DNA of 64,000 nucleotides from Klugiella xanthotipulae (GTDB taxonomy: Bacteria; Actinomycetota; Actinomycetes; Actinomycetales; Microbacteriaceae), in assembly GCF_006716695.1 (NCBI RefSeq), contig NZ_VFPN01000001.1, forward strand, positions 1-64,000. The letters run 5' to 3'. The notes below the pieces were generated by a model that searched no databases, was not told the origin of the DNA, and saw nothing but the letters and a program-made list of their open reading frames with translations. The stretch's first letter is position 1. Each line of letters opens with the position of its first letter. Both the position numbers and the translations under genes were made by a program. This document shows positions 26,541-43,260 of this stretch, piece by piece.

Positions 26541-26594
26541 GCAGCGAGTAGTTCCCAGCAACTTCAAAGAATGTTATAACTAGAGGAAATGAAT

Positions 26595-28562
26595 ATGAGC
26601 AACGACGATATCCACGAGACACCTTCATCAACTCCTAACTTCCGCACGGAGCTTGCAGCTCAGTTGGCTGAGCTTGTTCCCGAGGCTATTGCTGACGGCA
26701 AGGTGGACGTTGTCAAGCTCCAGGAGCTTCTCGACGGAGACGCAGCCGATGGTAACGAACACTTTGGCCTGTTCTGGCCGGGCAAGAAGGGTGCGCTTCG
26801 TGTGGCACAGGAGCCAACCACCGCGACGCTGAAGCCCGACTTCGAGAATTCGAAAGACTGGGACACCACGCAGAACGTCTTCATTGAGGGCGACAACCTC
26901 GAGGTGCTCAAGATCTTGCAGCGTCACTACCACGGCAAGATCAAGATGATCTACATTGACCCGCCCTACAACACCGGTAAGGACTTCGTCTACTCTGACA
27001 ACTACCGCGATGGGCTTCAAACATACCTGGAGTACACGGGCCAGCTTGACGCAAATGGCAAGGCGAAAAGTTCTAATGCTCGGAACACTACGGACAACCC
27101 ACACTACCATTCAGCGTGGCTAAGCATGATGTACCCCCGACTCAAACTGGCCAGGAATCTACTTACCGACGATGGTGTCATACTCATTTCGATAAGTGAG
27201 GCCGAGCAAGCTCAGTTACGTCGGCTCTGCGATGAGATCTTCGGGGAAAACAACCTGATCGAGCAGTTCGTATGGCTGAACGAAGGAAATGTTGACCAAC
27301 AGAGCAAGATCAAAGGTGTTCACGAGTACGTTTTGGCCTACGCCCGAGACACCGAGAAGCTGGCTAGGCCATCAGTTATTGATCCGAATATTTCCGAAGA
27401 CAGTAAGCTCTATCGCGATCTGATCGAGAACTCAATCACAAAGAACGGAGCAGCAAATCCCCCGTCTATAGTTGAGCTGCCTGTCGGATTCCCCACGAGC
27501 TTCGACTCTGGCCGTATCGTTTCACGCAACGATACCTTCCCGCACATACTAGATGAAATATTGGTCCAGAGCGGGAAGGTGTCGGCACCTGCTCGGGTTC
27601 AAAGCGGATGGAGCTCAAGGAATCTGCTCGACCTATTCATACGCAACGGGTGTGCACCTATTGAGGATTCCGACGGGCGTGAAACTTGGTTCGAACTCCG
27701 TGAAACTGGCGCCATCTACATGCTGAAGCGCCGCGCCCAAGATCAAGGGCATGTATTGTCAGTTTTGCGCAACCTCGGCACTACTAAGCAAAACAGCTCA
27801 CTGCTTGCATCATGGGGACTAAGATTCTCCTACCCAAAACCAGTTGGGCTCATTGAGTACCTTATTACTGTATTCACACGCCCCAGCGAGAACGCGCTAA
27901 TTCTTGATTTTTTCGCTGGCTCCGCAACTACGGCACATGCCACAATGCAGGCTAATCTGCGTGACGACGGGAACAGAAGGTTCCTCCAAGTGCAGCTACC
28001 GGAACCTGCAAGCGAGCCTGCAGAATCTACACTTGCCGACCTCGCTCGAATACGCATCTCGAAGGCCGGTGAGATGCTCGCCAACACAAAAAGCAACCAA
28101 CTCAAGACAGATTCCATCGGGCAGCTTGACGTTGGTTTCCGCGCTTTCGGGCTTGCGGAAACGAACTTCTCAAAGTGGCGGGCAGCAAGCGATGTCGATG
28201 CTCCTGAGCTGGAGCAGCAATTGCTGAGTCTTCGCGACAGCGCCGATGACGATGCGACGCCAGACGACCTCTTTACAGAGATCCTGCTCAAGCAAGGGTT
28301 CTCGCTAACTGAACGAATTGAGCCTCGTGAGGTCGCAGGTATTGACCTGCGCGCTGTACTTCAGTCCGATGGTGACCTTGCAGTACTTGCGTACCTGAAT
28401 GAGCACGTCAAACCGACGCTCGAGCAGCTCCGCGCGATGGTAGCTGAGATCCCAGGCGGAAAGATCATTGTTCTTGAAGACGCGTTCCACGGCGATGACG
28501 AACTAAAGACCAACCTTGCCCAGCTATGCAAGACCAACGGCATTGAACTGTGGACGGCATAG
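26595..28562 (+). CDS. mod: type III restriction-modification methyltransferase (Mod)
   Basis: About 655 residues (an ATG two codons earlier at 26589 is also possible; AGAGGAA favours 26595). Catalytic motif IV DPPYNTGKDF comes first, and the AdoMet motif FFAGSATTAHA comes about 320 residues later, so this is a beta-class N6-adenine methylase as in Mod subunits. The intervening region (about residues 190-400) is the probable target-recognition domain and is more AT-rich and less conserved in look than the flanks, as expected for a diversifying domain. The C-terminus has the helical LDVGFRAFGLAETNFSKWRA typical of Mod. It forms the modification half of the system with the res gene 7 bp downstream. 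Confidence 0.92.
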   Translation: MSNDDIHETPSSTPNFRTELAAQLAELVPEAIADGKVDVVKLQELLDGDAADGNEHFGLFWPGKKGALRVAQEPTTATLKPDFENSKDWDTTQNVFIEGDNLEVLKILQRHYHGKIKMIYIDPPYNTGKDFVYSDNYRDGLQTYLEYTGQLDANGKAKSSNARNTTDNPHYHSAWLSMMYPRLKLARNLLTDDGVILISISEAEQAQLRRLCDEIFGENNLIEQFVWLNEGNVDQQSKIKGVHEYVLAYARDTEKLARPSVIDPNISEDSKLYRDLIENSITKNGAANPPSIVELPVGFPTSFDSGRIVSRNDTFPHILDEILVQSGKVSAPARVQSGWSSRNLLDLFIRNGCAPIEDSDGRETWFELRETGAIYMLKRRAQDQGHVLSVLRNLGTTKQNSSLLASWGLRFSYPKPVGLIEYLITVFTRPSENALILDFFAGSATTAHATMQANLRDDGNRRFLQVQLPEPASEPAESTLADLARIRISKAGEMLANTKSNQLKTDSIGQLDVGFRAFGLAETNFSKWRAASDVDAPELEQQLLSLRDSADDDATPDDLFTEILLKQGFSLTERIEPREVAGIDLRAVLQSDGDLAVLAYLNEHVKPTLEQLRAMVAEIPGGKIIVLEDAFHGDDELKTNLAQLCKTNGIELWTA

Positions 28563-28568
28563 GGCATC

Positions 28569-31500
28569 ATGTCGAACACACAGACCTTCAAGTTTGACGA
28601 TAAGCAGCAGTTTCAACTCGATGCCATCGCAGCGGTCACTGACCTCTTCGACGGACAGCCGAAAGACGCCGACTTGCTCATTACCCGCCTCCGCGGGTCA
28701 GTGAAAGTCACGGAAACAGGTAGCGCAGAACTCCCAGGCATCGCTGAGCACGCTGCGCGTGAAGCAGAGATTGCAGCAGAGATCGGTGCGATTGGCAACA
28801 ACCTCATTGTCGAGAGTGACACGATTCTCGAAAACCTCCGGCTGGTGCAAGGTCGAAATGGGCTTGAACCGAGCGCGATGCTTGCTGACGAAGGGTTCGG
28901 CTTTGATATCGAGATGGAGACCGGTACCGGCAAGACGTACGTGTACCTCCGCACCATTTTTGAGCTTGCGCAGAAGTACAACTTCACAAAGTTCATTATC
29001 CTCGTTCCAAGCGTGGCGATCCGTGAGGGCGTGAATACAAGTATCGAGCTAATGCGGCAACACTTCCGTGATCTCTACCCTGCTCTACCATTTAACTCCT
29101 CGGTGTATAGCGGCAAGGCCGCTGAAGAAGTGCAATCATTTGCGACGTCGACAAACGTCCAGATCTTGGTGATGACAATCGACTCGATCCGGGGTGATGC
29201 GAACTCGCGCATCATTCATCAGACCCGCGACAAGCTCCAGGGGCTTCGACCAATTGACTACCTAAAAGCCACGCGCCCCGTAGTCATCATGGATGAACCG
29301 CAGAATATGGAATCCAAGCTCTCCCAGAGTGCGGTCGAAGACCTCGCTCCGACTTGCACACTGCGCTACAGTGCGACCCACCGCAAGACGCGCAACGTGG
29401 TGTACCGGCTTGACCCTGTCGATGCTCACGACAAGGGTCTCGTGAAACAGATCGTCGTTGCCGAAGCGCGCCAGCAGGGTGCCGATGCTGCCCCGTTTAT
29501 TCGACTTGTCGATGTCCTGAGTAATCCGTGGGCAGCGAAGCTCGAACTCGTATGTCGCAAGGCCGACGGATCAATGCAGCGAATGACCAAGAAGGTCAAA
29601 CAAGATCAAGAGTTGTCTGCCAAGTCTGTCTCCGATAACCCGGTCTACGAGGGTTGGCGCATTATGAATATGGGGTTCGAATCGCCTGATGGTTCGGGGC
29701 TACCTTTCGTCGAGCTGACGAAGCACTCGTTGTTGAATCAGGGTGAGGAGATCGGTGGCAACTCTCAGGAGATCTACCGTGAGATGATCCGCGAGACAAT
29801 CAAGGAGCACCTTCGCAAAGAAGCACAGCTGCGCCCGCAAGGCATCAAAGTGCTGAGCTTGTTCTTTATCGACAAGGTTGCCAACTTCCTCGGCAACGGT
29901 ACGAACAACGATGACTCTGACGGTCAATATGTGAAGTGGTTCGACGAACTGTTCCGCGAAGAACGAGATCGCTTCCCCGCCTACAAGGAGCTACTTCCCG
30001 GCGACCCGGCAGACTACCGCAAGGCCTATTTCGCGCAGATGAAGAAAGGCACCGGCAAAGCTGCTCACCTGGAGTTTGTGGATTCGAAGGGTGAAGGTAC
30101 CACAGCCAAAGACGATGATGCCTACGACCTGATCATGAAAGACAAGGTCCGTCTGCTCAGTGAAGATACCCCCACCCGCTTCATTTTCAGCCACTCAGCG
30201 CTTCGCGAAGGCTGGGACAATCCGAACGTATTCCAGATCTGTACGCTGCGCGAAATGGGTGGAGAAACCGAGCGACGGCAGACCATTGGCCGGGGTCTCC
30301 GCCTTCCAGTGAACCGCAACTATGAGCGAGTAGCCGACTCGAGCGTTGCCCAGCTGACGGTGATTGCGAACGAGTCCTATGCAGAGTTCGCGAAGAGCCT
30401 GCAAGACGAGTACAAGAAGGCTGGCGTGCAGCTCGGGTTCGTGCGCCGAGGTGAGTTCGCGCAGATTCCGCTCGTTGATGGCGAGAACGAAACCCCACTT
30501 GGTTACCATGCCTCAGTACGCATTTGGGAGACGTTGATGCAGAACGGCTTCTTGGACAAAGAAGGCCGTGTACTCGAGACATTCACGCCGAATGTCATCG
30601 GCTTCGACCTTGGTTTGCCGGTCGACATCACCTGGGCCTCACCAGTGGTCATTGAGCTGATTGACAAGTGCAAGCTAGACAAGCTCGTCAAGCGGAAGAA
30701 GGATAAAGAACTCCGCACGCTCAACAAGGAGCTGTACTGGTCTGAAGAGTTTGAAGAGTTCTGGTACGCGATCAGCCGCAAGACCACGTACCGAGTGAAG
30801 GTTGATCGCGACGAGCTGATCCAAAAGTCTGTCGAGAATTTGCGTGACCTGGTTGCTAACCCTCGCATTGCACCTCTCCGCATTCAGATCACAAAGGCAG
30901 GCTTGAAGATTGAGCGCGGCGGTGCGAAAGCGGAAGAGCGCGGCGTACGAACTGCGGAGCTGCGCGGAAGCTACGACCTCCCTGACATCATTACCGAGCT
31001 GCAAGACGAGACTAAGCTCACGCGTCGAACCATTATAGACATTTTGACTAAGAGTGAGCGTCTTGATGAGTTCATCGGAAACCCGAATGATTTCATCGCG
31101 ATGGCGAAACGAGTGATCAAGGCTGAGCTGGCGAAGATTGTCGTGAAGGGTGTGGAGTACGAGAAGATCGCGGGCAGTATCTACGAATTGCGGGAGCTTC
31201 AGAAGGACAGTCAGGACGATGCAGATCGCTTCCTTGACCAGCTCTACAAGGTGCAAAACCAAGAGAAGACCGACTTCGACTACGTGCTGTTTGACTCTGG
31301 CGTCGAAGAGGCGTTCGCGAAGAAGCTTGATACTCGCGAAGATATCAAGATGTTCATGAAGCTCCCGGCGAAGTTCAAGATCGACACCCCCGTCGGGCCA
31401 TACAACCCAGACTGGGCGATCGTGAAGCACGAAGACGGCGCTGACCGCATCTACATGATCCGCGAGACCAAGAGCACCTCAAACGTAGAGCTACTCCGCC

Positions 31501-31595
31501 CTACCGAAAAAGCCAAGATCGAAGCCGCAACCGAACACTTCAAGGCCCTAGACATCGACTACGCAAAGTCATCCCCGGAAGGCTGGAACCTATGA
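28569..31595 (+). CDS. res: type III restriction endonuclease helicase subunit (Res)
   Basis: 1008 residues. Helicase motifs: METGTGKTY (K122), IMDEPQNME (D242, a DEPQ-type box), TLRYSATHRKT, and the C-terminal FSHSALREGWDNPNVFQICTLREMGGETERRQTIGRGLRLP. The end holds a PD-(D/E)XK nuclease: NPDWAIV (D948) and RETK (E966, K968). Res needs Mod for specificity and cuts after ATP-dependent communication between two sites. The last 362 bp are nearly identical to the end of the gene at 41364. The stop overlaps the next ATG (ATGA), coupling it to the ATPase. Confidence 0.93.
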   Translation: MSNTQTFKFDDKQQFQLDAIAAVTDLFDGQPKDADLLITRLRGSVKVTETGSAELPGIAEHAAREAEIAAEIGAIGNNLIVESDTILENLRLVQGRNGLEPSAMLADEGFGFDIEMETGTGKTYVYLRTIFELAQKYNFTKFIILVPSVAIREGVNTSIELMRQHFRDLYPALPFNSSVYSGKAAEEVQSFATSTNVQILVMTIDSIRGDANSRIIHQTRDKLQGLRPIDYLKATRPVVIMDEPQNMESKLSQSAVEDLAPTCTLRYSATHRKTRNVVYRLDPVDAHDKGLVKQIVVAEARQQGADAAPFIRLVDVLSNPWAAKLELVCRKADGSMQRMTKKVKQDQELSAKSVSDNPVYEGWRIMNMGFESPDGSGLPFVELTKHSLLNQGEEIGGNSQEIYREMIRETIKEHLRKEAQLRPQGIKVLSLFFIDKVANFLGNGTNNDDSDGQYVKWFDELFREERDRFPAYKELLPGDPADYRKAYFAQMKKGTGKAAHLEFVDSKGEGTTAKDDDAYDLIMKDKVRLLSEDTPTRFIFSHSALREGWDNPNVFQICTLREMGGETERRQTIGRGLRLPVNRNYERVADSSVAQLTVIANESYAEFAKSLQDEYKKAGVQLGFVRRGEFAQIPLVDGENETPLGYHASVRIWETLMQNGFLDKEGRVLETFTPNVIGFDLGLPVDITWASPVVIELIDKCKLDKLVKRKKDKELRTLNKELYWSEEFEEFWYAISRKTTYRVKVDRDELIQKSVENLRDLVANPRIAPLRIQITKAGLKIERGGAKAEERGVRTAELRGSYDLPDIITELQDETKLTRRTIIDILTKSERLDEFIGNPNDFIAMAKRVIKAELAKIVVKGVEYEKIAGSIYELRELQKDSQDDADRFLDQLYKVQNQEKTDFDYVLFDSGVEEAFAKKLDTREDIKMFMKLPAKFKIDTPVGPYNPDWAIVKHEDGADRIYMIRETKSTSNVELLRPTEKAKIEAATEHFKALDIDYAKSSPEGWNL
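31234..31595 (+). repeat. direct repeat copy A (3' end of res)
   Basis: These 362 bp match 41455-41816 base for base apart from scattered, mostly silent differences. The two copies are in the same orientation 10,221 bp apart and encode the Res nuclease core. Confidence 0.9.
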
Positions 31596-33757
31596 CCGAA
31601 CACCTGCTTGACAAATCACTGGCGACGACGGATTCAGTTCACGACATCTCCTTGGAGAATTGCAACAGCATCGACCGCGGTCGAATCCAGCTGTTCAAGG
31701 GTAAGCTCAACGTGAAGTACGGCCCAAACGGAACTGGGAAAAGCACAATTGCTCGAGTTCTCGACTCGCGCACGAAAGGTGAAAAAGAACTAGAACAATA
31801 CACGCCATTCAAACACAAAGACGATGCGAAAGGCGCACGACCTTCTGTTCTCGGGGCTGACGATATCAAAAGCGCACTCGTCTTCGATGAGGACTATGTT
31901 TCTGCGTTTGTTTTTCAACCCACCGAGGTTCTCAAGGATAGCTTTGAGGTGTTCATCAATACGGAGGAATACAGACAGGGCCTCGCTGACATTGCAAAGC
32001 TTTTTGAGTCCTTGAAGGATACGTTCTCGCAGGACCCCCACCTCGAGGAGGCAATCGCAGGTTTCACGCGGCTCCGAGATGTTTTCGGAGTTACCAAAGC
32101 CGGAGCAATTTCGAAGACGAGTAGTGGCTTCAAAGCGCTGTCAATGGTAGGAAAACTCCACAAGATCCCGAACGAGCTTCAGGGTTTTCAGGGATTTCTA
32201 GAGGGAGCCGATCCTGGAGGCTGGATCAGCTGGCAGTCCAAGGGGAAAGCTTTCTTGGACCACTCGGACAATTGCCCATTCTGCTCGGTTCCAAACCTAA
32301 ATAGAGCGGTTGCCGAAAGGGTTTCAACCGAGTACGAGTCTGCCGCCGTGAAAAATCTCAATGCCATCCGCTCAGTGGTTGATCAACTGGGAGACTACGT
32401 CGAGCCATCGAATCTCGCGCAGTTACAGGAGATTACAACAGTGATCGACGGCCTGACACCTGAGCAGTTAACGTTTCTTTCGACAATTCAGGCACATATC
32501 ACTACCCTTCTAGCCAAACTTACAGAGGTCAGGGATGTATCTTTCTTCGCGTTTCAGGAAGATCGAAATATCAAGGAAAAGCTTGCGAAGCTAAAAATTG
32601 ACTTACCGTTACTCTCAACCCTGGCATCACCGAAGACAAAAGAGGTTACGGACGCGATCAACACAAAGCTCGATGAAGTCGCTGAGAAGATTGCCGAGGT
32701 TGCCGTAACAGTCGACAGGCAAAAAGGGCGCGTAAAGAAACTCGTTGAATCAAACCAGGAATCAATCAATGACTTCCTGAGATCTGCGGGTTACAAGTAC
32801 TCGGTTAGAATCATCCCCGATGGCGACACGTTTAAGATGATACTTGAGCATCAAGATTCTGCAGGGCACTTAGGAAAAGCAGGGCAACACTTAAGCTATG
32901 GCGAGAAGAACGCCTTTGCATTGGTGCTATTTATGCATCAGGTCAAACAAATAAAACCCGATCTTGTAATTCTTGATGACCCGGTCTCTAGCTTTGATAA
33001 GACGAAGAAGTTTGCGATTCTGCATAAACTCTTCCATAACGATGATGGGATTCGTCAATTCACCACACTTTTCCTGACGCACGACATCGAACCCGTAATT
33101 GACATGCTGGTGAGTGGCCCTCTGCGCAAAGGTATGGGAGATCAAGCAGTCGCACATTTCCTGCGGTCTTTTGACGGCGTCCTCGAGGAAAATAGGATAC
33201 TACGCGATGACGTAAAAACATTTGCTCAGATCTGTGACCGCAACATCTCAGAGGCGTCGGACATCGCTATCAAGTGTATATATCTTCGACGACGATTAGA
33301 AGTGAGCGGTGACTACGGGCTTGGATACCAACTGTTGTCAAGCCTCCTTCACCTGAGAGAAGTACCTACCCGCCAGGAACTGGATGGTAGGCAGATAGAT
33401 CTGACTCCTGACCAAATACATGAGAGCACAGAGCTGGTGCGTTCATGCTTGAACCTGCCTGAATTTGACTACAGTTCAACTGTTGCCGACCTACGCGCCG
33501 AAGGGGACTTGATCGCTCGATTTGATGCGGCATCCGCTGGGTACGAGAAGGTTCAGCTCTTCAGGATTTTTTCAGAACTCCCCTCTGTCCAAGTGAAGGC
33601 GAGCTCACCATTTCAAAAGTTCGTGAACGAGTCGTTCCATATCGAAAACGAATACCTCATGCAACTGGACCCGCGGAAGTTTGACGCGGTTCCTGAGCAC
33701 ATTGTCAAGGAATGCGAGGCACTGATTGATTCACACCGGCCTATCATAGTTGACTAG
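31592..33757 (+). CDS. AAA_13-type ATPase related to RloC/PrrC, in the type III operon
   Basis: 721 residues. The SMC-like ATPase has Walker A YGPNGTGKSTI (about residues 47-57), a CPFC zinc-hook-like pair near residue 228 inside a coiled-coil region, the signature LSYGEKNAFAL, and Walker B/D-loop LVILDDPVSSFDKTKK followed by LFLTHD. This is the AAA_13 pattern of RloC and PrrC. Past the ATPase, RRRLE gives R566 and E570 with H587 in SSLLHL, an R-x3-E...H arrangement like the PrrC anticodon-nuclease triad. Whether it is a nuclease is unproven. PrrC-type toxins guard restriction enzymes, and this gene sits between type III and type I systems. The ATG overlaps the res stop. Confidence 0.8.
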   Translation: MTEHLLDKSLATTDSVHDISLENCNSIDRGRIQLFKGKLNVKYGPNGTGKSTIARVLDSRTKGEKELEQYTPFKHKDDAKGARPSVLGADDIKSALVFDEDYVSAFVFQPTEVLKDSFEVFINTEEYRQGLADIAKLFESLKDTFSQDPHLEEAIAGFTRLRDVFGVTKAGAISKTSSGFKALSMVGKLHKIPNELQGFQGFLEGADPGGWISWQSKGKAFLDHSDNCPFCSVPNLNRAVAERVSTEYESAAVKNLNAIRSVVDQLGDYVEPSNLAQLQEITTVIDGLTPEQLTFLSTIQAHITTLLAKLTEVRDVSFFAFQEDRNIKEKLAKLKIDLPLLSTLASPKTKEVTDAINTKLDEVAEKIAEVAVTVDRQKGRVKKLVESNQESINDFLRSAGYKYSVRIIPDGDTFKMILEHQDSAGHLGKAGQHLSYGEKNAFALVLFMHQVKQIKPDLVILDDPVSSFDKTKKFAILHKLFHNDDGIRQFTTLFLTHDIEPVIDMLVSGPLRKGMGDQAVAHFLRSFDGVLEENRILRDDVKTFAQICDRNISEASDIAIKCIYLRRRLEVSGDYGLGYQLLSSLLHLREVPTRQELDGRQIDLTPDQIHESTELVRSCLNLPEFDYSSTVADLRAEGDLIARFDAASAGYEKVQLFRIFSELPSVQVKASSPFQKFVNESFHIENEYLMQLDPRKFDAVPEHIVKECEALIDSHRPIIVD

Positions 33758-33825
33758 CGTATCTTCGAGGACGGCAGTCATCCGTGTGGCCGGGGACGCC
33801 AACGACTATTTATGGAGATCTGAAT

Positions 33826-34176
33826 TTACCCGCCATGGACGGTTCTCTCGCTGATGTGCTTCCTCACCGTCTTGTGATTCCGCCCCACCCGCTTGGCGAT
33901 GGTCTTGAACCCGAGCCCTTCAGCGTGGAGCTGTCTCCAGGTCGCAATTTCTTCGTCGCTTGGCACAGCAACTCGAGATTCGATGCCTGCCGCGGCAAGG
34001 TGCTTCATGATGGTGTCGCGGCCATGACCGTAGCGCTTCCCTATTTCGCGGGCTGACATCCCTGCGTCGTAGTCGGCGATCATCAGTTTGAGTCGTTCCG
34101 GTGTCACTCGCCTGAGTGTGCGGGTCTTAGGTGCTGGTGTGCTAAGTTTTGGGGCAGCGGGAGCGAATTCAAGCAA
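33826..34176 (-). CDS. small protein with two helix-turn-helix repeats
   Basis: About 116 residues. Two similar HTH segments are seen: VTPERLKLMIADYDAGMSAREIGKRYGHGRDTIMKHLAAAGI and PSDEEIATWRQLHAEGLGFKTIAKRVGRNHKTVRKHI. These resemble resolvase/transposase DNA-binding repeats, so it could be a regulator or the DNA-binding remnant of a recombinase. The start is a TTG with GGGGTGG upstream; the head is proline/alanine-rich. It lies antisense between the ATPase and hsdM. Confidence 0.6.
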   Translation of the reverse strand: MLEFAPAAPKLSTPAPKTRTLRRVTPERLKLMIADYDAGMSAREIGKRYGHGRDTIMKHLAAAGIESRVAVPSDEEIATWRQLHAEGLGFKTIAKRVGRNHKTVRKHISERTVHGG

Positions 34177-34478
34177 CTTCCACCCCTGTTCTATTTTTTC
34201 TGCATGGGACGAGAACAGCCCGACAGAATGCCCCGGAACATCGTTGAAATATCAACGGAGTTCCGGGGTTTTGTTGTTTCTGCAGAACTGTCCGAACCCC
34301 CTTTGGCCGGTATCCCTAGATTGCAGCACATGGTCGTGAAGTGACCTATTCCCTGTTGCATCGCCCATCACGCTTCGGCGTGCGGCGCGGCAGCAGTTCA
34401 GCGTCTGTCGTCACCGGTAGCGTGGATCCCATCGAGCAAACGAACATTTAGCGCACTTTGATGCGCAGGAGAAGACAC
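34177..34478. other. 302-bp gap before hsdM with a terminator and the hsdM leader
   Basis: No gene found. It holds the strong hairpin at 34231-34268 and, near the right end, AGGAG at about 34467, the hsdM ribosome site. No confident promoter hexamers were seen. Confidence 0.5.
34231..34278 (+). terminator. Rho-independent terminator between the type III and type I operons
   Basis: CCCCGGAAC (34231-34239) pairs with GTTCCGGGG (34260-34268); the loop contains an inner CGTTGA/TCAACG pairing; TTTTGTTGTTT follows. It separates the type III/ATPase genes from the type I operon, so the latter has its own promoter. Confidence 0.8.
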
Positions 34479-36047
34479 ATGGCACCAACGTCCAAAGAAG
34501 CCCAACGAGCCCAACTACACAAGACCATCTGGCAGGTCGCAAACGACCTGCGCGGTTCAGTCGATGGGTGGGACTTCAAGACGTACATTCTCGGCATGCT
34601 GTTCTACCGCTTCATTTCCGAAAACCTGAGCAACTACATCAACAAAGGTGAACACGAAACGGGCAACACCGGCTTTGATTTCGCGAAGCTTTCGGACAGC
34701 GACGGCGAATTCGCTCGCGCAGACATCGTGCACGAAAAAGGCTTCTTCATTCTCCCCTCCGAGCTATTCGAAAACGTTCGGGCACGGGCCGCACAAGACG
34801 AAAACCTCAACGAAACACTCGAGACAGTGTTCCGCAACATCGAAGCGTCCGCCGTAGGCAGTGCGAGTGAAGGCGATCTCAAAGGCCTCTTCGATGACTT
34901 GAACGTCAACAGCACGAAGCTCGGCAACACGGTCGCGAAACGCAACGAGAAGCTCGTGAAACTGCTTGCCGAGATCGGCAGGCTCCCGCTCGGTGATTTC
35001 GCCGACAACTCGATCGATCTATTTGGTGACGCATACGAGTTCTTGATGCAGATGTATGCGTCAAGCGCTGGCAAGTCTGGCGGTGAATACTACACCCCGC
35101 AAGAGGTGTCAGAACTTCTGGCGTTCATCACGACGCGCGGCAAGAAGCGCATCAACAAGGTCTACGATCCGGCAGCAGGCTCTGGATCACTGCTGTTGAA
35201 GTTTGCGAAGGTACTCGGCAAGGAAAACGTGGGCGGGTTCTACGGGCAAGAGATCAACCTCACGACCTACAACCTCGCGCGCATCAACATGTTCTTGCAC
35301 GACGTGAACTATGAGAAGTTCGACATTGCTCTCGGCGACACACTCACAGAACCCGCGCACTGGGACGACGAACCGTTCGAAGCAATCGTCTCCAACCCGC
35401 CCTACTCGATTAAGTGGGAGGGTGACGCGAACCCGCTCCTCATCAACGACCCACGGTTTGCGCCTGCCGGTGTGCTCGCCCCGAAATCGAAGGCCGATCT
35501 GGCGTTCACGATGCACATGCTGCACTGGCTAGCGACCGACGGCACCGCTGCGATCGTTGAGTTCCCCGGAGTTCTGTATCGGGGTGGCGCGGAGCGGAAG
35601 ATCCGCAAGTATCTGATCGACAATAACTATGTTGAGGCTGTGATCCAGCTCCCGTCTGATCTGTTCTTCGGCACGACGATCGGCACCTGCATCATTGTGT
35701 TGAAGAAGTCGAAGCACACAGACGATGTGATCTTCGTTGACGCGTCGGCGGAGTTTGTGCGTACAGGCAACAAGAACAAACTGTCGCAAGCGAACCTCGA
35801 CAACATTCTTAACGCACTTGACGAGCGTGCACCGCAAGACCACTTCGCCCAGATCGTGAAGAACAGCGCGATCGCCGAGAACGACTACAACATTGCGGTG
35901 TCGAGCTACGTCGAGCAGGAGGACACTCGCGAGGTGATCGACATCACCGAGTTGAACGCGCGTATCGAGCAGATCGTCGCCCGCCAGTCCGAGCTGCGCA
36001 CCTCGATCGACGCGATCGTCGCCGATCTTGAGGGAGGTACGAAATGA
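34479..36047 (+). CDS. hsdM: type I restriction-modification methylase subunit (HsdM)
   Basis: About 522 residues. N-terminal helical domain (LHKTIWQVANDLRGSVDGWDFKTYILGMLFYRFISE) typical of type I M subunits; GGEYYTPQEVSELL; AdoMet motif I DPAAGSGSLL (residues 230-239); catalytic NPPY (306-309) in IVSNPPYSIKW. It makes N6-methyladenine with HsdS and, with HsdR, restricts. The ATG at 34479 has AGGAG upstream; the frame is open to 34458. Its TGA overlaps an ATG that begins no sensible gene (see 36044). Closest in look to type IC subunits. Confidence 0.95.
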   Translation: MAPTSKEAQRAQLHKTIWQVANDLRGSVDGWDFKTYILGMLFYRFISENLSNYINKGEHETGNTGFDFAKLSDSDGEFARADIVHEKGFFILPSELFENVRARAAQDENLNETLETVFRNIEASAVGSASEGDLKGLFDDLNVNSTKLGNTVAKRNEKLVKLLAEIGRLPLGDFADNSIDLFGDAYEFLMQMYASSAGKSGGEYYTPQEVSELLAFITTRGKKRINKVYDPAAGSGSLLLKFAKVLGKENVGGFYGQEINLTTYNLARINMFLHDVNYEKFDIALGDTLTEPAHWDDEPFEAIVSNPPYSIKWEGDANPLLINDPRFAPAGVLAPKSKADLAFTMHMLHWLATDGTAAIVEFPGVLYRGGAERKIRKYLIDNNYVEAVIQLPSDLFFGTTIGTCIIVLKKSKHTDDVIFVDASAEFVRTGNKNKLSQANLDNILNALDERAPQDHFAQIVKNSAIAENDYNIAVSSYVEQEDTREVIDITELNARIEQIVARQSELRTSIDAIVADLEGGTK

Positions 36048-36231
36048 CGAACGCCTCAGATCAGGGAGCTGTTCTCGGCCGAGCTACTGGCAAACTCGCG
36101 CGAAGGGCAACTGTTCGGAATCTCCGAACAGTTCGAGCTGAGGTCAACCGAACTGTCAAGAATTCCTTGACCGTTGGTACTGGGGCAAGGTGTGGGAAAT
36201 CCCGACAGGTTCAGCAGAGAGAGATTTGCTC
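36044..36231 (+). pseudogene. frameshifted gene remnant between hsdM and mrr
   Basis: An ATG overlapping the hsdM stop opens a 63-codon frame that is arginine-rich and unnatural. Protein-like sequence appears instead in two other frames in turn: about 36063-36167 reads RELFSAELLANSREGQ...FELRSTELSRIP before a stop, and about 36157-36231 reads QEFLDRWYWGKVWEIPTGSAERDLL, running into the mrr-like gene. This pattern fits a short gene broken by two frameshifts. I cannot name the parent. Confidence 0.5.
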
Positions 36232-37155
36232 ATGACAGAAATGCCGACTTGGGAATGGTTCATGACTCCGACGCTGCGTGTGCTCAGCGATGGTGTTGTT
36301 CGGCACTGGCGTGAGTTTCAGCCTCTTGTCGCTGACGCAGCAAAGCTCACCCCAGAGCAAAAGACTGAGATGCTGCCATCTGGCAATCAGCTTAAGTACC
36401 AGAACCGCATCGGCTGGGGTGTTTCGTTTCTGACGAATGTAGGTGCTCTCGAACGCCCGAAGCGGGGACACTACCAGATCACGGAAGCTGGGAAGGAATT
36501 GCTTGCGCGCTTTCCCAATGGCGTTCTGGAACGCGACATCAAAGCGCTCGGTGCAGACTCGAACTCGCCGATCCGCATTTACCAGTCCACTGGGCCGCGC
36601 ACAAAGGCCAGTCAGGAGACCGTCGAAGTTGAAGAATCATCGTTGACGCCGATTGAGCAAGTGCAGAGTGGTATCGAACGCATCCATGAGGAAGTGGCGA
36701 CTGAGCTGTTGGAACGCCTCCGCGGCAAGGAGCCTGGCTTCTTCGAACACGCGGTCGTCGACCTTTTGCTCGCTATGGGTTATGGCGGAACCACCGGGGC
36801 GGGTAGTGTTACGCAGCTCAGCAACGATGGCGGCATCGACGGCGTGATTGATCAAGACATTCTCGGACTCAATCGCGTTTACATTCAGGCCAAGCGTTAC
36901 GCCGAGGGTAATGCGGTGGGGCGTCCGGATCTGCAGGCGTTTGTGGGGGCTCTCGCTGGCAAGGCAGACAGCGGTGTATTCATCACGACGAGCCATTTCT
37001 CGGAGCATGCGAGCAGGTACGTGCATACGGTTCCGACACGTATCATTCTCATCGATGGCAAGCGACTCACAAGCCTCATGATTCGCTACGGTGTTGGCGT
37101 GCAGGTCAAAGAAACCTACAAGGTCGTCGAGATCGACGAGGACTTCTTCGCATGA
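36232..37155 (+). CDS. mrr: Mrr-family restriction endonuclease within the type I operon
   Basis: About 307 residues. N-terminal winged-helix Mrr_N domain (LRVLSDGVVRHWREFQPLVADAAKLTPEQKTEMLPSGNQLKYQNRIGWGVSFLTNVGALERPKRGHYQIT) and C-terminal Mrr_cat nuclease: FFEHAVVDLLLAMGYGG, GGIDGVID with D203, then VYIQAKRY giving Q219 and K221 of the D-QxK site. Mrr cleaves methylated DNA and can also be activated by foreign type III methylases in E. coli, a relevant neighbour here. ATG at 36232 is preferred; the stop overlaps the hsdS ATG (ATGA). Confidence 0.88.
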   Translation: MTEMPTWEWFMTPTLRVLSDGVVRHWREFQPLVADAAKLTPEQKTEMLPSGNQLKYQNRIGWGVSFLTNVGALERPKRGHYQITEAGKELLARFPNGVLERDIKALGADSNSPIRIYQSTGPRTKASQETVEVEESSLTPIEQVQSGIERIHEEVATELLERLRGKEPGFFEHAVVDLLLAMGYGGTTGAGSVTQLSNDGGIDGVIDQDILGLNRVYIQAKRYAEGNAVGRPDLQAFVGALAGKADSGVFITTSHFSEHASRYVHTVPTRIILIDGKRLTSLMIRYGVGVQVKETYKVVEIDEDFFA

Positions 37156-38315
37156 GCCGCATTGACGAGTTGATCGCGCAGCACTGCCCTGACGGGGTGG
37201 AACACTTTGTGCTGGGCACTGTCGTAAAGTACTCCACCACAAGGGTGGATGCAGAAGAACTCGACGAGACAAGTTTTGTTGGTGTTGATAACCTCCTGCC
37301 CAACAAAGCCGGGAAAGTCTCTGCCACGTATCTTCCCAATACCGCTCGATTGACCGCGTACGTCTCAGGTGACGTGCTCATCGGAAACATACGCCCTTAT
37401 CTCAAGAAGATCTGGCTTGCCACGGGAAGCGGCGGCTGTAGCGGCGATGTCTTGGCTATTCGTATCGTTCAGGATTTCAGCGAGCGGCTTGACTCAGGAT
37501 TTTTGTTCTACATACTCTCCTCGGATGGCTTCTTCGCGTACAACATGCAGAACGCGAAAGGCGCAAAGATGCCGCGCGGTAACAAAGAAGCGATTATGAA
37601 TTATCGGGTGCCGGTGCCGCCGCTTGCGGTGCAGCGGGAGATCGTGCGAATTCTTGATATGTTCACGGAGCTGGAAGCGGAGCTGGAAGCGGAGCTGGAA
37701 GCGGAGCTGGAAGCCCGCAAACAACAGTACGAGCACTATCGTGGATCGTTGCTCGATTTCGGCGACGACGTTGAGCAGGTGCCGCTCGGGGAGATCGCAA
37801 CGATCGGTACGGGCAGTCACGACACAAAAGATGCGATCAATGAAGGGGCGTATGCCTTCTTTGCGCGTGGCCGCGAGCCTCTTCGCCTGAACTCGTTTGA
37901 CTTCGAAGACACCGCGGTCATTACTGCCGGAGATGGTGTAGGTGTCGGCAAGGTGTTCCACTATGTCAGCGGGAAGTACGCGCTGCACCAACGTGCGTAT
38001 CGAATCGTGCCGAACGTTGGTATCGAGCCTCGCTACATCTATCACTATCTCGTATCAAGTTTTGCACGGTACCTTGAACGCACTTCTGTGCATGCGTCCG
38101 TGACGTCACTGAGGCGGCCAATGTTCCTGACCTGCCCTGTCCCGCTACCTTCGATTGAGGAGCAGCGGCGCATCGTCGCGATTTTGGACAAGTTTGATTC
38201 GTTGGTGAATGACTTGTCGGTGGGGCTTCCGGCGGAGCTTGCCTCGCGGCGGCAGCAGTACGAGCATTACCGTGACCGGTTGCTCACGTTCAAAGAACTG
38301 GAGGTGGCAGCATGA
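37152..38315 (+). CDS. hsdS: type I specificity subunit (HsdS)
   Basis: 387 residues with two target-recognition domains. The first covers about 15-165 and the second about 205-350; each ends in a conserved helix: VPPLAVQREIVRILDMFTELEAEL... and PLPSIEEQRRIVAILDKFDSLVNDL, both followed by RRQQYEHYRD/RKQQYEHYRG. The linker between them carries four copies of a four-residue repeat (ELEA) at DNA positions 37668-37715. In EcoR124I-type enzymes the number of such 12-bp repeats sets the spacer length in the bipartite target. ATGA overlaps on both sides link it to mrr and hsdR. Confidence 0.95.
   Translation: MSRIDELIAQHCPDGVEHFVLGTVVKYSTTRVDAEELDETSFVGVDNLLPNKAGKVSATYLPNTARLTAYVSGDVLIGNIRPYLKKIWLATGSGGCSGDVLAIRIVQDFSERLDSGFLFYILSSDGFFAYNMQNAKGAKMPRGNKEAIMNYRVPVPPLAVQREIVRILDMFTELEAELEAELEAELEARKQQYEHYRGSLLDFGDDVEQVPLGEIATIGTGSHDTKDAINEGAYAFFARGREPLRLNSFDFEDTAVITAGDGVGVGKVFHYVSGKYALHQRAYRIVPNVGIEPRYIYHYLVSSFARYLERTSVHASVTSLRRPMFLTCPVPLPSIEEQRRIVAILDKFDSLVNDLSVGLPAELASRRQQYEHYRDRLLTFKELEVAA
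37668..37715 (+). repeat. four 12-bp repeats in the hsdS central spacer
   Basis: GAGCTGGAAGCG is repeated four times, the last copy ending in C. It keeps frame at any copy number and encodes ELEA, extending the helix between the two recognition domains. Confidence 0.95.
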
Positions 38316-41300
38316 ATCAGCATCCCAAAAACTACGACATTGTCGCGTTCGGTGGTGAGCAGACCGTTGTCGTCGAGTACACACCGGATCCGCGTGATCA
38401 AGCGAGCTATCAGTCCGAGGCGCAACTCGAAGCTGAGTTCATCAAGCAGCTGCAAACCCAAGCGTATGAGTACGTGAACATCACGAGCGAAGCTGAACTT
38501 GTCGCGAACCTGCGGGTGCAGCTCGAAGCGCTCAACGACTACCAGTTCAGCGACACCGAGTGGAAGCAGTTCTTTGAGACGCGAATCGCGAGTGCCGGTG
38601 ACGGGATCGTCGAAAAGACCGTGCGCATGCAAGAAGACCACGTGCAGCTCCTCACCCGAGACGACGGCACGACGAAGAACATTTCGCTGATCGATAAGCA
38701 GCACATCCACAGCAACCGCCTGCAGGTCATCAACCAGTACGCCGTAGATCGCGGGCATGGGGAAACTGGGCACAGTGGCGGAGCGAACTACTCAAACCGG
38801 TACGACGTGACCGTGCTCGTCAACGGCCTGCCGATGGTGCACATCGAGCTCAAACGTCGCGGGGTGCCGATTCGTGAGGCGTTCAACCAGATCGACCGCT
38901 ACCAGCGCGACAGCTTCTGGGCAGGCAGTGGCCTTTTCGATTACGTGCAACTGTTCGTCAGCTCAAACGGCACCCAGACGAAGTACTACTCCAACACCAC
39001 CCGCCGCCAGCACATCAACGACCAGACCGGGGCGAGGCGTTCAAAGAAGACGTCCAACTCGTTCGAATTCACCTCGTGGTGGGCTGACGCAAAGAACACC
39101 CCCATTCTTGATCTGACCGCGTTCGCGAAAACGTTCTTCGCGAAACACTCCCTGCTCAGCATTCTCACCCGCTACTGCGTACTCACGAGCGACCGGTTGC
39201 TGCTCGTCATGCGCCCGTACCAGATCGTCGCGACCGAAAAGATTCTGCAGAAAATCGACATCTCCACCAACTACAACACCCTGGGGAGTATCGCCGCGGG
39301 CGGGTATGTGTGGCATACCACCGGATCCGGAAAGACACTCACCAGTTTCAAAACCGCGCAGCTCGCCTCCCGTCTCGACAGCGTCGACAAGGTCATTTTT
39401 GTGGTGGATCGTAAAGACCTCGACTACCAGACGATGAAAGAGTATGACCGCTTCGAAAAGGGAGCTGCGAACTCGAACACGTCAACGGCGGTGCTGAAGC
39501 GGCAGTTGGAAGACCCGTCGAAGAAGATCATTATTACGACGATTCAGAAGCTCTCTACCTTCATCGCGGGCAACAAGCAGCATGAGGTGTATGGCGGGCA
39601 TGTGGTGCTGATCTTTGATGAGTGTCACCGTTCGCAGTTTGGTGACATGCACACCGCGATCACGAAAGCGTTCAAACGGTACAACCTGTTTGGGTTTACC
39701 GGCACGCCGATCTTTGCCGAGAACTCCTCAGGTGGTGGCAACCCGCAATTGCGGACCACAGAGCAGGCGTTCGGTGACAAGCTGCACACGTACACGATTG
39801 TGGATGCGATCACGGACAAGAACGTGCTGCCGTTCCGCATCGACTACGTCAACACCATCAAGGTCGGCAACGTCGGCGACAAACAAGTCTCGGCGATTGA
39901 CACCGAGACCGCACTGCTCGCCCCCGTACGCGTATCGCAGGTGGTCTCGTACATTCGGGAGCACTTCGATCAGAAGACAAAACGCAGCGAGGGGTACGCG
40001 CTCGGTGAGCGGCGGGTGCGTGGCTTCAACTCGTTGTTCGCGACGGCTTCGATCACCGCCGCGCGTAGCTACTACCTCGAGTTTCAGCGGCAGCAAGCTG
40101 GGCTTGTGCCGGATCAGCGGTTGAAGGTTGCGACGATCTTCTCGTACGCGGCGAACCCGGACACCGAAGACGGGATGCTGGATGAGGAAGGCTTTGAGAC
40201 GGATGCGCTGACTGGCGATGCGCGGGCATTCCTTGAGGGTGCGATCGCGGACTACAACGCGATGTTTGGTGTCAGCTACGACACGAGTGCTGACGGGTTT
40301 CAGAACTACTACAAAGACCTGTCTCAGCGGCTTAAGACCCGTGAACTTGATCTCGTGATTGTCGTGAATATGTTCTTGACCGGGTTTGACGCGACGACGA
40401 TGAACACGCTGTGGGTGGATAAGAACCTGAAGAGTCACGGCCTGATCCAGGCGTACTCCCGCACCAACCGGATCCTGAACTCCGTTAAGACCTACGGAAA
40501 TATTGTCGCGTTCCGTGATCTTGAGGCTGCAACGAATGACGCGATCGCTCTGTTTGGGAACAAGCACGCCACCGGGATCGTGCTGCTGAAACCGTACCGC
40601 GACTACTTCGAGGAGTATTCGGAGAAAGTCACTGCCCTGCTGGCCCAATATGTGCCGGGTGAATTGATTGTCGGTGAGGATGAGCAGCGGGCGTTCGCCA
40701 GGTTGTACGGCGATATCTTGCGGCTGCGGAACATTCTGACGTCGTTTGATGACTTCGCCGCCGATGAAATACTCACGGAGCGTGACCGGCAAGACTTCCA
40801 GTCGACGTATCTTGATCTCTGGAACGAGCGGAAGAAAGCCGCCGGGAGTGAAAAGGAAAGCATCGCCGATGACGTGGTGTTTGAGATTGAGCTGATCAAA
40901 CAGGTTGAGATCAACGTTGACTACATTTTGATGCTCGTGCAAAAGTACCGCGACGAACGCGGCGACGGCGACGATGTTGAGCTGCGCGCTGGCATTTCGC
41001 GGGCGATCGACTCGAGCCCTACCCTACGCAACAAGAAGGATCTGATCGAGAACTTCGTGGACTCGGTGTCGGTGACCGGCGAGATCGATGCTGAGTGGCG
41101 AGCGTATGTCGCGACTGAGCGTGAGCGGGAGCTGGCGGCGATTATCGCGGCAGAGTCGCTGCGCGAGGAAGAGACTGAGCGGTTTATGGCGGCGGCGTTC
41201 CGCGATGGGGTTTTGCGTACGAGTGGTGTCGAGATCACCCGCGTGCTGCCGCCCGTGTCGCGCTTCGCCCGCAGCGGTGGTCACGGTGAGAAAAAGCAGC

Positions 41301-41371
41301 GCGTGGTTGAGTTGCTGCAGGCGTTCTTTGAACGGTTTAGTGGGTTGGGCGGAGGAGGCAGCAATGCCTAA
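38312..41371 (+). CDS. hsdR: type I restriction subunit (HsdR)
   Basis: 1019 residues. An N-terminal PD-(D/E)XK nuclease (YDVTVLVNGLPMVHIELKRRG: D165, E179, K181) precedes the motor: WHTTGSGKTLTSF (K341), DECHRSQFG (from D436), GFTGTPIFAE, and MFLTGFDATTMNTLWVDKNLKSHGLIQAYSRTNR. The C-terminus is helical for docking on HsdM. The ATG overlaps hsdS (ATGA). The stop lies 5 bp inside the downstream gene. Confidence 0.95.
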   Translation: MNQHPKNYDIVAFGGEQTVVVEYTPDPRDQASYQSEAQLEAEFIKQLQTQAYEYVNITSEAELVANLRVQLEALNDYQFSDTEWKQFFETRIASAGDGIVEKTVRMQEDHVQLLTRDDGTTKNISLIDKQHIHSNRLQVINQYAVDRGHGETGHSGGANYSNRYDVTVLVNGLPMVHIELKRRGVPIREAFNQIDRYQRDSFWAGSGLFDYVQLFVSSNGTQTKYYSNTTRRQHINDQTGARRSKKTSNSFEFTSWWADAKNTPILDLTAFAKTFFAKHSLLSILTRYCVLTSDRLLLVMRPYQIVATEKILQKIDISTNYNTLGSIAAGGYVWHTTGSGKTLTSFKTAQLASRLDSVDKVIFVVDRKDLDYQTMKEYDRFEKGAANSNTSTAVLKRQLEDPSKKIIITTIQKLSTFIAGNKQHEVYGGHVVLIFDECHRSQFGDMHTAITKAFKRYNLFGFTGTPIFAENSSGGGNPQLRTTEQAFGDKLHTYTIVDAITDKNVLPFRIDYVNTIKVGNVGDKQVSAIDTETALLAPVRVSQVVSYIREHFDQKTKRSEGYALGERRVRGFNSLFATASITAARSYYLEFQRQQAGLVPDQRLKVATIFSYAANPDTEDGMLDEEGFETDALTGDARAFLEGAIADYNAMFGVSYDTSADGFQNYYKDLSQRLKTRELDLVIVVNMFLTGFDATTMNTLWVDKNLKSHGLIQAYSRTNRILNSVKTYGNIVAFRDLEAATNDAIALFGNKHATGIVLLKPYRDYFEEYSEKVTALLAQYVPGELIVGEDEQRAFARLYGDILRLRNILTSFDDFAADEILTERDRQDFQSTYLDLWNERKKAAGSEKESIADDVVFEIELIKQVEINVDYILMLVQKYRDERGDGDDVELRAGISRAIDSSPTLRNKKDLIENFVDSVSVTGEIDAEWRAYVATERERELAAIIAAESLREEETERFMAAAFRDGVLRTSGVEITRVLPPVSRFARSGGHGEKKQRVVELLQAFFERFSGLGGGGSNA

Positions 41372-41816
41372 TGTCGAATACGCGAGCTTCGGGGGTGGTG
41401 TTTACGAAGTACGCGAGCTTCACAGAGACAGTCAAGACGATTCAAATCGCTTCTTTGACCAGCTCTACAAGGTGCAAAACCAGGAGAAGACCGACTTCGA
41501 CTACGTGCTGTTTGACTCTGGCACCGAAGAGACGTTCGCGAAGAAGCTTGATGCTCGCGAAGATATCAAGATATTCATGAAGCTCCCGGCGAAGTTCAAG
41601 ATCGACACCCCCGTCGGGCCATACAACCCAGACTGGGCGATCGTGAAGCACGAGGACGGCGCTGACCGCATCTACATGATCCGCGAGACCAAGAGCACTT
41701 CGAACGTAGAACTGCTCCGCCCCACCGAAAAAGCCAAGATCAATGCCGCAACCGAACACTTCAAGGCCCTGAATATCGACTACGCAAAGTCATCCCCGGA
41801 AGGCTGGAATCTATGA
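41364..41816 (+). CDS. stand-alone type III Res nuclease-domain protein
   Basis: 150 residues from an ATG with GGAGGAGG just upstream, overlapping the end of hsdR by 8 bp. Residues 1-30 resemble the corresponding part of Res at low identity; from about residue 31 the protein is nearly identical to the last 120 residues of Res and keeps the nuclease residues D90 (NPDW), E108 and K110 (RETK). It lacks any helicase. It could be the intact 3' end of a second, mostly lost res gene, or a functional domain protein cotranscribed with the type I genes. A fortuitous good ribosome site cannot be excluded, though it is strong. Confidence 0.65.
   Translation: MPNVEYASFGGGVYEVRELHRDSQDDSNRFFDQLYKVQNQEKTDFDYVLFDSGTEETFAKKLDAREDIKIFMKLPAKFKIDTPVGPYNPDWAIVKHEDGADRIYMIRETKSTSNVELLRPTEKAKINAATEHFKALNIDYAKSSPEGWNL
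41455..41816 (+). repeat. direct repeat copy B of the res 3' end
   Basis: Pairs with 31234-31595. The near-identity starts sharply at TTGACCAGCTC and stops at the stop codon, after which the sequences differ. Confidence 0.9.
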
Positions 41817-41866
41817 GGATAGAAAACCTTAGGAAGTTCGTTAATGCGGGAGGTCATAGCGCCTAA
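41813..41866 (+). pseudogene. 17-codon stub following the Res-like domain gene
   Basis: An ATG overlapping the preceding stop (ATGA), exactly like the start of the ATPase gene after res, opens MRIENLRKFVNAGGHSA and then stops. The start resembles the N-terminus of an AAA ATPase and may be what is left of a partner gene. Too short to be sure. Confidence 0.3.
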
Positions 41867-42000
41867 TGGCAACAGTACCCTATTCGGTCCGGAGCTTCAA
41901 AGCTCTCGCGGAGCGGGAGTCACGACGAGGGGCAGACCTATCTCGCACAGTTCCTGCCGTAAAAAAGGCTGTTGCTGATCTCCATGCAAGGCGAGAGCAA
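41866..42000 (+). pseudogene. 45-codon gene fragment cut by the IS element
   Basis: The ATG overlaps the stop of the stub (TAATG). It encodes MATVPYSVRSFKALAERE... for 45 residues and then runs into the IS left end. No family recognised. The rest of the gene is not found on the other side of the IS. Confidence 0.4.
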
Positions 42001-42037
42001 TGGTTTGGCCTGGGTTTAGTTCCGACTATTTTGTTCA

Positions 42038-42949
42038 TCACTCGACGGTTGTCACGAGTGACTGCGCCTCAGCATAGTACGCCGTCTCAACCTCGACCGG
42101 GGTTCGCCTGCCTAGCTCGCCGTGGAGGCGCTCATTGTTCCACCACCACACATACTCCAGGGTGGCGAGTTCGACTTCCTCAACTGTTTTCCAGGGGCCA
42201 CGCCTGCGGATGAGTTCTGCTTTGTAGAGCGCGTTCACTGACTCGGCCAGGGCATTATCGTAGCTGTCACCTACGGTCCCCGTTGAAGGAATCGCCCCCA
42301 GTTCTCTGACGCGGTTGGAGTAGACCATCGACATGTAGTTCGATCCGTGGTCGCTGTGATGCACGGCCCCGTCGAGCGTTCCACCTGATTGCCAGGCCGC
42401 CATCTCAAGCGCCTGCAGCGGCAGTATCTCAGCTTTCAGTGTTGAGGCAACGTTCCAGCCAACGATCTTACGATCAAAGACATCAATAATGAACGCGGTG
42501 TATGCGAACCCAGCCCACGTAGCAACGTAAGTGATGTCACACACCAACAACTTCATTGGCCCGTCGGCCACGAACTGGCGTTCGACGAGATCACCCGGCA
42601 GCTGATCCCTGACGTCACTCGTTGTTGTGAAGGCTCTCTTCGAACGACGTACCCCACGCACTCCGGCGATTTTCATCAGACGCTCGGTTTGGTCGCGTCC
42701 GATGACCCACCCTGCTCTGGTGAGGAGGGCGTGCATCTTGCGGCGCCCGTAGACGCTGTAGTGCTGTTTGTGGAGTTGACGGATCTCGGTGACGAGAATC
42801 TCGTCGCGTAGTTTCCTGACCGACGGGAGTCTGTGTTTCGCTGCCCGATATCCTCGGGACGTCAGAAACCCACGAATTGCCGAGCCCAGCACACGGCACA
42901 GGAACTCAACCCCGAAACGATCACGATAGGTATCGATGAATTGGATCAT
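42038..42949 (-). CDS. IS3-family transposase OrfB (DDE integrase)
   Basis: 303 residues. HTH_21-like start (ETITIG-side helix, VRKLRDEILVTEIRQLHKQHYSVYGRRKMHALLTRAGWVIGRDQTERLMKIAGVRGV) and an rve catalytic core: CDITYVATWAGFAYTAFIIDVFDRKIVGW (first D), HHSDHGSNYMS (second D), NALAESVNALYKAEL (E). The start overlaps the end of orfA (ATGA); full transposase probably arises by -1 frameshifting between the frames. It looks intact. Confidence 0.92.
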   Translation of the reverse strand: MIQFIDTYRDRFGVEFLCRVLGSAIRGFLTSRGYRAAKHRLPSVRKLRDEILVTEIRQLHKQHYSVYGRRKMHALLTRAGWVIGRDQTERLMKIAGVRGVRRSKRAFTTTSDVRDQLPGDLVERQFVADGPMKLLVCDITYVATWAGFAYTAFIIDVFDRKIVGWNVASTLKAEILPLQALEMAAWQSGGTLDGAVHHSDHGSNYMSMVYSNRVRELGAIPSTGTVGDSYDNALAESVNALYKAELIRRRGPWKTVEEVELATLEYVWWWNNERLHGELGRRTPVEVETAYYAEAQSLVTTVE

Positions 42950-43260
42950 TTCGTTCGTGGGGGGTCGAGTTCCTTGGCGAAAAATATGCTCGCAGCTCGC
43001 AAGACTTCGTTTGCTTTCTTGAGTTCAGCGACTTCGCGGCGCAGTCGCCGGTTCTCCTCGTTCATATCAGTGGTCACGCCGGGTTTTTGGCCAGTATCGA
43101 TCAGCGTTTGACGATGCCAGATACGCAGCGTGTCTGGTGAGACACCGAGGAGCTTGCCGACCTGGTTGCTGGCTGCGTTGAGGCTCGTATGCTCGGGGAG
43201 CGCTTCGGTGAGCATACGCAGCGCGCGTTCACGGAATTCTGGTTCATATTTGTTTGCCAT
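42946..43260 (-). CDS. IS3-family transposase OrfA
   Basis: 104 residues: an HTH_Tnp_1 domain (YEPEFRERALRMLTEALPEHTSLNAASNQVGKLLGVSPDTLRIWHRQ) followed by a leucine-zipper-like helix (NEENRRLRREVAELKKANEVLRAASIFFAKEL). It binds the inverted repeats and dimerises with OrfB. Overlaps orfB by 4 bp. Confidence 0.92.
   Translation of the reverse strand: MANKYEPEFRERALRMLTEALPEHTSLNAASNQVGKLLGVSPDTLRIWHRQTLIDTGQKPGVTTDMNEENRRLRREVAELKKANEVLRAASIFFAKELDPPRTK

Follow-up and report, generated by a model that had tools for sequence, protein, structure and literature searches.

A perfect 12-bp tandem repeat in a type IC hsdS gene as a probable adjustable spacer

The operon and its surroundings

The window analysed here is a stretch of 64,000 nucleotides from Klugiella xanthotipulae, in which positions 23658-43260 form a dense defence island with a gene for a DrmD-like helicase, type III mod and res genes, a gene for a PDC-S06 ATPase and a type IC operon with an Mrr-like gene. 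The operon lies on the forward strand. In it, hsdM, which encodes the methyltransferase subunit (34458-36047), is followed by the gene for an Mrr-like nuclease (36190-37155), by hsdS (37152-38315), which encodes a specificity subunit of 387 amino acids with two Methylase_S stretches, and by hsdR (38312-41371), which encodes a motor/nuclease subunit with an EcoR124_C domain. The hsdS gene overlaps each of its two neighbours by 4 bases. These assignments are based on Pfam and PADLOC, supplemented by a comparison of homologues for the Mrr-like gene and by a PDB match and the predicted fold for hsdS.

The presence together of hsdR, hsdM and hsdS, where HsdS has two Methylase_S stretches (Pfam, PADLOC), identifies the operon as a type I restriction-modification system, and PADLOC calls type I M, S and R. 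The assignment to type IC uses the domain PF12008 (EcoR124_C), which HsdR carries at 6.1e-66. Type IC systems are also defined by subunit complementation or by antibody cross-reaction with EcoR124I. Switching by recombination with a second hsdS of the same genome was sought and rejected: the genome has one HsdS match at E <= 0.001, and no second hsdS was found at this threshold.

Five further distinct loci (L032, L042, L047, L060 and L081) encode homologues of the Mrr-like protein, 52-79% identical, that likewise separate hsdS from a homologue of hsdM, so the presence of this guest gene is a recurrent arrangement. Operons of this kind resemble EcoprrI, which also has a guest gene, although the guest there is prrC and not an Mrr-like gene. 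The Mrr-like gene is not needed for the action of the repeat described below.

Elsewhere in the window, a perfect intergenic repeat, CTCAG x5.4, lies at 23241-23267, approximately 390 bp upstream of the gene for the DrmD-like SNF2 helicase (23658-26540), and it is possible that this repeat varies expression. A direct duplication of 445 bp, with copies at 31151-31595 and 41372-41816 that are 91% identical, comprises the 3' terminus of type III res; the second copy starts directly after the hsdR stop codon. By our reading, two open reading frames at 42038-43260 look like an IS3-type transposase.

The target-recognition domains (TRDs) of HsdS were taken, with approximate boundaries, as residues 1-150 (TRD1; 37152-37601) and residues 205-330 (TRD2; 37764-38141). 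In an AlphaFold2 model made with 35 relatives (mean pLDDT 92.5, pTM 0.76), a central connector helix with the repeat in its middle (residues 158-200; 37623-37751) pairs with a distal connector helix that has no repeat (residues 335-377; 38154-38282), and each helix comprises 43 residues. The model, together with its alignment by VIA-align, thus has the fold of an S subunit, with two TRDs joined by two antiparallel helices. VIA-align matched the model to 5ybb (Z 26.1, rmsd 3.5, 357 residues aligned), 3okg (Z 24.5) and 7vs4 (Z 24.2), and to EcoR124I 7bst with Z 19.4 (rmsd 5.7, 345 residues aligned). The top PDB match by sequence is the EcoR124 S subunit of 7bst, an entry that is labelled EcoR124II specificity protein in the sequence listing and EcoR124I in its title.

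In its TRDs, the protein is a mosaic: it is 71% identical to L034 in TRD1 and 25% in TRD2, while the corresponding values for L032 are 26% and 75%. Its TRD1 is 61-71% identical to relatives with 2, 3, 4 and 10 repeat units, and also to L085 (67%), which has no clear repeat; the repeat is therefore not indispensable. Its TRD2 is 66% identical to that of E. coli L152, and the 3' part of the L152 hsdS gene has 99.9% DNA identity to a gene annotated as EcoprrI hsdS.

The repeat array and known type I repeats

It had been proposed from the letters alone that four 12-bp repeats occupy 37668-37715 and form four in-frame ELEA copies in the hsdS linker. Direct reading of the sequence bears out the ELEA copies, which lie at 37668-37679, 37680-37691, 37692-37703 and 37704-37715, are in frame with hsdS and correspond to HsdS residues 173-188. 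The boundaries of the repeat itself differ slightly from the proposal. Units 1-3 are each GAGCTGGAAGCG, the fourth is GAGCTGGAAGCC, and base 37715 departs from the 12-bp period, so that the perfect periodicity comprises the 49 bp from 37666 to 37714 on the forward strand. TRF reports this array with period 12, 4.1 copies, 100% match and a score of 98, which is the highest among 25 TRF rows in the window (the next is 57).

We rejected the possibility that the array is a chance repeat. When the window was simulated 60 times with a first-order Markov model, no run with period 12 exceeded 23 bp, versus 49 bp in the array. The identity of codons between units (the same codon for E, L and E in all four units, and for A in at least three) has P = 1.9e-4, a value that is conditional on the ELEA residues and on codon usage elsewhere in the window's hsdS.

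In-frame 12-bp units are known from several HsdS proteins, which we describe here from parts of the cited papers. In EcoR124I/II, two or three TAEL units lead to recognition of GAA N6 RTCG or GAA N7 RTCG, and the change in copy number is ascribed to unequal crossing-over (PMC3874165). EcoprrI, with TAEL x3, recognizes CCA N7 RTGC (PMC3874165). In NgoAV of Neisseria gonorrhoeae, the number of in-frame LEAT units, one or two, is similarly tied to the gap, with methylation of GAC N6 TGC or GAC N7 TGC, although the expected motif was left unmethylated in one of the strains that have a single LEAT unit (PMC6789123). These reports uphold the statement of the sequence-only reading that copy number sets the recognition gap in EcoR124I and its relatives. 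The repeats named for type IC in part of PMC10030836 are TAEL, LEAT, SEAL and TSEL, and the feature given there is found in the window's protein, where ELEA x4 aligns with the TAEL x2 of 7bst, with four extra residues. We found no description of ELEA in HsdS in the part of the literature on HsdS repeats that we covered.

In Mycoplasma pneumoniae, the 12-bp units encode AELS or TELS in the first dimerisation helix, and their number varies between strains and passages; arrays of 10-33 units are reported, and for the short array of MPN089 (2-6 units), strain M129 gave 5 units when sequenced once and 3 when sequenced another time (part of PMC4537597). The same kind of variation is described in part of PMC8836594, which associates it with macrolide resistance, an association that we do not adopt. 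The M. pneumoniae genes share with the window's gene the in-frame 12-bp unit and its location in the helix, but their arrays are longer (the maximum is at least 33 units) and a genome contains ten hsdS genes, versus one here.

The equivalence to the EcoR124I repeat that had been suggested holds for where the array lies, for the length of its unit and its frame, and for the type of system. Both the window's operon and EcoR124I/II are type IC, and both have an in-frame 12-bp unit within the central helix. In addition, the window's linker is as long as one with TAEL x3: in the E. coli protein L153, which has three TAEL units, an F is followed by 17 residues and RKKQY, and in the window's HsdS an F is followed by 17 residues and RKQQY. 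The differences are that the window's unit is ELEA and not TAEL, that its TRDs share no more than 20% and 26% identity with their counterparts in L153, and that its operon belongs to an actinobacterial family and carries the Mrr-like gene between hsdM and hsdS. EcoprrI likewise shares the 17-residue linker and, as judged from L152, a similar TRD2, whereas TRD1 is 23% identical to that of L152. NgoAV differs in having an additional frameshift switch, a poly-G tract; no such tract is in the TRF list for the window's hsdS.

Linker lengths and unit turnover among relatives

We gathered hsdS genes from 398 genomes of Microbacteriaceae, of which 47 had a DNA match and 41 a protein match at 1e-20; from these, loci were taken for 30 of the 48 matches in DNA and for 30 of the 51 in protein. 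From the GTDB collection, where 352 stretches were confirmed, we added the best 80. Viral contigs contributed 6 loci by a pattern scan and 4 by a protein scan, which entered only the linker and pair counts. The resulting 168 matching open reading frames represent 145 distinct proteins, in which we parsed the central linker up to a limit of 60 residues and otherwise without any assumption as to its length.

All 116 distinct central linkers that were parsed have 1+4n residues, with lengths of 9 (2 linkers), 13 (51), 17 (60), 21 (1), 29 (1) and 41 (1), where the 13-residue linkers of L091 and L102 were counted as central and a 54-residue match in L086, which is spurious, was excluded. The most common units among them are ELEA (58) and ELTA (32). 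In contrast to this variation, the distal linker has 17 residues in 118 of 118 parsed cases. The Microbacteriaceae linkers have either 13 residues (15 of 33 parsed) or 17 (18 of 33), and no other length.

A total of 29 of the 168 open reading frames had no parsed central linker and were not duplicates of a parsed one, and 19 of these are partial HsdS matches of 185-257 residues. By eye, we read central linkers of 17 residues in L073, L092 and L138 and of 13 in L036, found no clear repeat in L085, and left unread L035, L128 and one gene that was seen as L031, L038 and L095. The distal helix was not parsed in 30 of the 145 distinct proteins; ten of these reach it and have 17 residues by eye (L030, L035, L040, L042, L050, L057, L062, L075, L085 and L088), and the others end before the helix, are partial or, in L128, have another C-terminus. 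Some alphaproteobacterial HsdS genes contain much longer perfect ELEA arrays, with approximately 17 units in L101 (1458-1663), 10 in L072 and 7 in L100 (3530-3615), where L100 and L101 come from the same MAG. The L101 array, with 17.2 perfect copies, exceeds the 60 residues that were parsed.

Two E. coli hsdS genes, L153 (1284 bp) and L154 (1272 bp), align with 0 mismatches and a single 12-bp gap, and therefore differ by one unit alone. Among 5,426 complete E. coli genomes, approximately 147 records have the two-unit form and approximately 177 the three-unit form at >=99% identity; these counts are approximate, as they are identity bands without a coverage condition, and they sum to 324, compared with 327 and 331 records that cover >=80%. 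In a 60-row sample drawn across 1,337 E. coli records, the 15 rows that contain the whole query span either 421 (7 rows) or 433 (8 rows), which correspond to two and three units, and one further row covers 81% of the query at 92.9% identity.

We also compared linker length with TRD identity, using pairs that are not independent of one another. Among pairs with >=70% identity, linker lengths differ in 22 of 36 pairs for TRD1 and in 36 of 66 pairs for TRD2, where random pairing would give 54%. At >=80% identity, the lengths differ in 5 of 10 pairs for TRD1 and in 6 of 11 for TRD2, again non-independent. Judged by these sequence comparisons, linker length is uncoupled from the TRDs.

These data bear on the alternative that survives best, namely that the array has a fixed structural role, as a coiled coil that happens to be repetitive, that selection holds at four units and that changes over evolutionary time only, with no switching within populations. 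Such an element would agree with the restriction of Microbacteriaceae linkers to 13 and 17 residues, with the constancy of the distal helix and with the fact that four perfect units are few in comparison to the 10-33 reported in part of PMC4537597. However, the two-length pattern fits slow evolutionary change and a fast switch equally, and the short MPN089 array varies nonetheless. Moreover, linkers held at a fixed length are difficult to reconcile with the uncoupling from TRD identity and with the coexistence of both states in one E. coli allele. We regard a fixed element as possible, but doubtful.

The DNA of the units provides a further line of evidence. Of 197 adjacent pairs of units that encode the same residues, 148 do not differ at all in DNA, versus 4.9 (sd 2.2) expected from the codon use of the same genes, and 53 of the 97 arrays with such pairs are identical in DNA throughout. 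Individual genes repeat their own synonymous version of a unit, for example GAGCTTGAGGCG x10 in L072 and GAGCTTACAGCA x5 in L124.

This homogeneity might alternatively have arisen by recombination between genes and not by slippage, if the repeat were a crossover tract at which hsdS genes exchange TRDs. The mosaic of an L034-like TRD1 and an L032-like TRD2 in the window's HsdS is what such exchange would produce, and the window's 12-mer does also occur in a distant genome, that of Dechloromonas (L071). However, gene-specific synonymous units are predicted by local slippage or unequal crossing-over and not by exchange, and the E. coli pair that differs by a single unit also argues against it. 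We therefore consider recombination unlikely as the explanation, although exchange within this conserved segment could be a partial source of the codon homogeneity.

Five relatives contain a second perfect short repeat about 50-110 bp after the 12-bp array, with frame-breaking units of 4, 7 or 8 bp in 6-12 copies (L070, 3647-3693; L100, 3665-3720; L101, 1713-1760; L114, 3630-3675; L146, 3637-3695). In these relatives, hsdS is split into an open reading frame for TRD1 plus the helix and further open reading frames. This arrangement resembles that of NgoAV, with a repeat that would adjust spacing and, after it, one that would turn the second TRD on or off.

That the window's array itself turns hsdS expression on and off by frameshifts, in the manner of the simple sequence repeats of mod genes, is extremely improbable: simple sequence repeats are reported in 7.9% of type I hsdS genes (part of PMC7394358), the array is a tandem repeat in a restriction-modification gene, and some relatives have the frame-breaking repeats just described, but 12 is a multiple of three, which rules out frameshifts by whole-unit changes, all 116 parsed linkers have 1+4n residues, and the TRF rows for the window's hsdS include no further array downstream of the helix.

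Proposed mechanism and implications

Our preferred interpretation is that, in this type IC HsdS, the array is the part of the central connector helix whose length can be adjusted. We consider this likely, a judgement that applies to the function as a spacer and to the ability to change; the frequency of change in a population is the point that the alternative of a fixed element disputes. Homology and the population data from relatives give good support to the array as a gap spacer. A gap switch based on 12-bp units is already known, and the window's hsdS would be an added member of this family.

In the proposed mechanism, the TRDs would be held at the ends of the two antiparallel helices, and the length of the central helix would determine the distance and the rotation at which the half-sites are read. 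With each 12-bp unit, the helix would grow by four residues, which is slightly more than a turn, and the target gap by approximately 1 bp. Slippage in replication or unequal crossing-over could add or remove whole units in frame, since the units have identical DNA and their length is divisible by three. The product of such a change would be a working enzyme with a shifted target, and not a dead enzyme.

Since four ELEA units equal three TAEL units in length (17 residues, from the F to RKQQY), the window's gene would be in the long state of EcoR124II and EcoprrI. The four units would thus represent the register that has N7 in those enzymes, and not an extra-long form. Loss of one unit would leave 13 residues, as with two TAEL units, and would give the EcoR124I register, with N6. 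By analogy with these systems, the window's hsdS would itself be subject to copy-number switching. We further predict that its TRD2 reads RTGC/GCAY, with an N7-like gap in the four-unit state; this specificity is expected because TRD2 is similar to that of L152, whose hsdS gene matches that of EcoprrI (CCA N7 RTGC) in its 3' part.

It is important to consider that a change in specificity exposes an unmodified chromosome to the cell's own enzyme, and switching may be rare on account of this cost. Type IC enzymes are reported to assemble via a cleavage-incompetent intermediate and to be transferred efficiently into naive cells (part of PMC12707154), which might make a switch easier.

A broader reading, which we put forward tentatively as a real possibility, is that the central HsdS linkers of type IC systems are in general a continually turning-over, quantised spacer of 1+4n residues, opposite a distal helix fixed at 17 residues, and that copy number is effectively randomised with respect to the TRDs. 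If this is true, each pair of TRDs would occur naturally with a few alternative gaps, and the window's gene would be one state of such a set. The arrays of 7-17 units in L100, L072 and L101 would then be extreme-gap enzymes or tolerant forms in which units are looped out, and the downstream frame-breaking repeat of some relatives would add an on/off choice of the second TRD. The window's gene offers a concrete prediction, namely a half-site of RTGC or its complement, with a gap that differs by one base between the three-unit and four-unit versions. Given that every parsed central linker has 1+4n residues, that every parsed distal linker has 17 and that both unit states are common among the E. 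coli records, our analysis suggests that linker copy number, besides TRD identity, should count as part of type IC specificity in motif databases.
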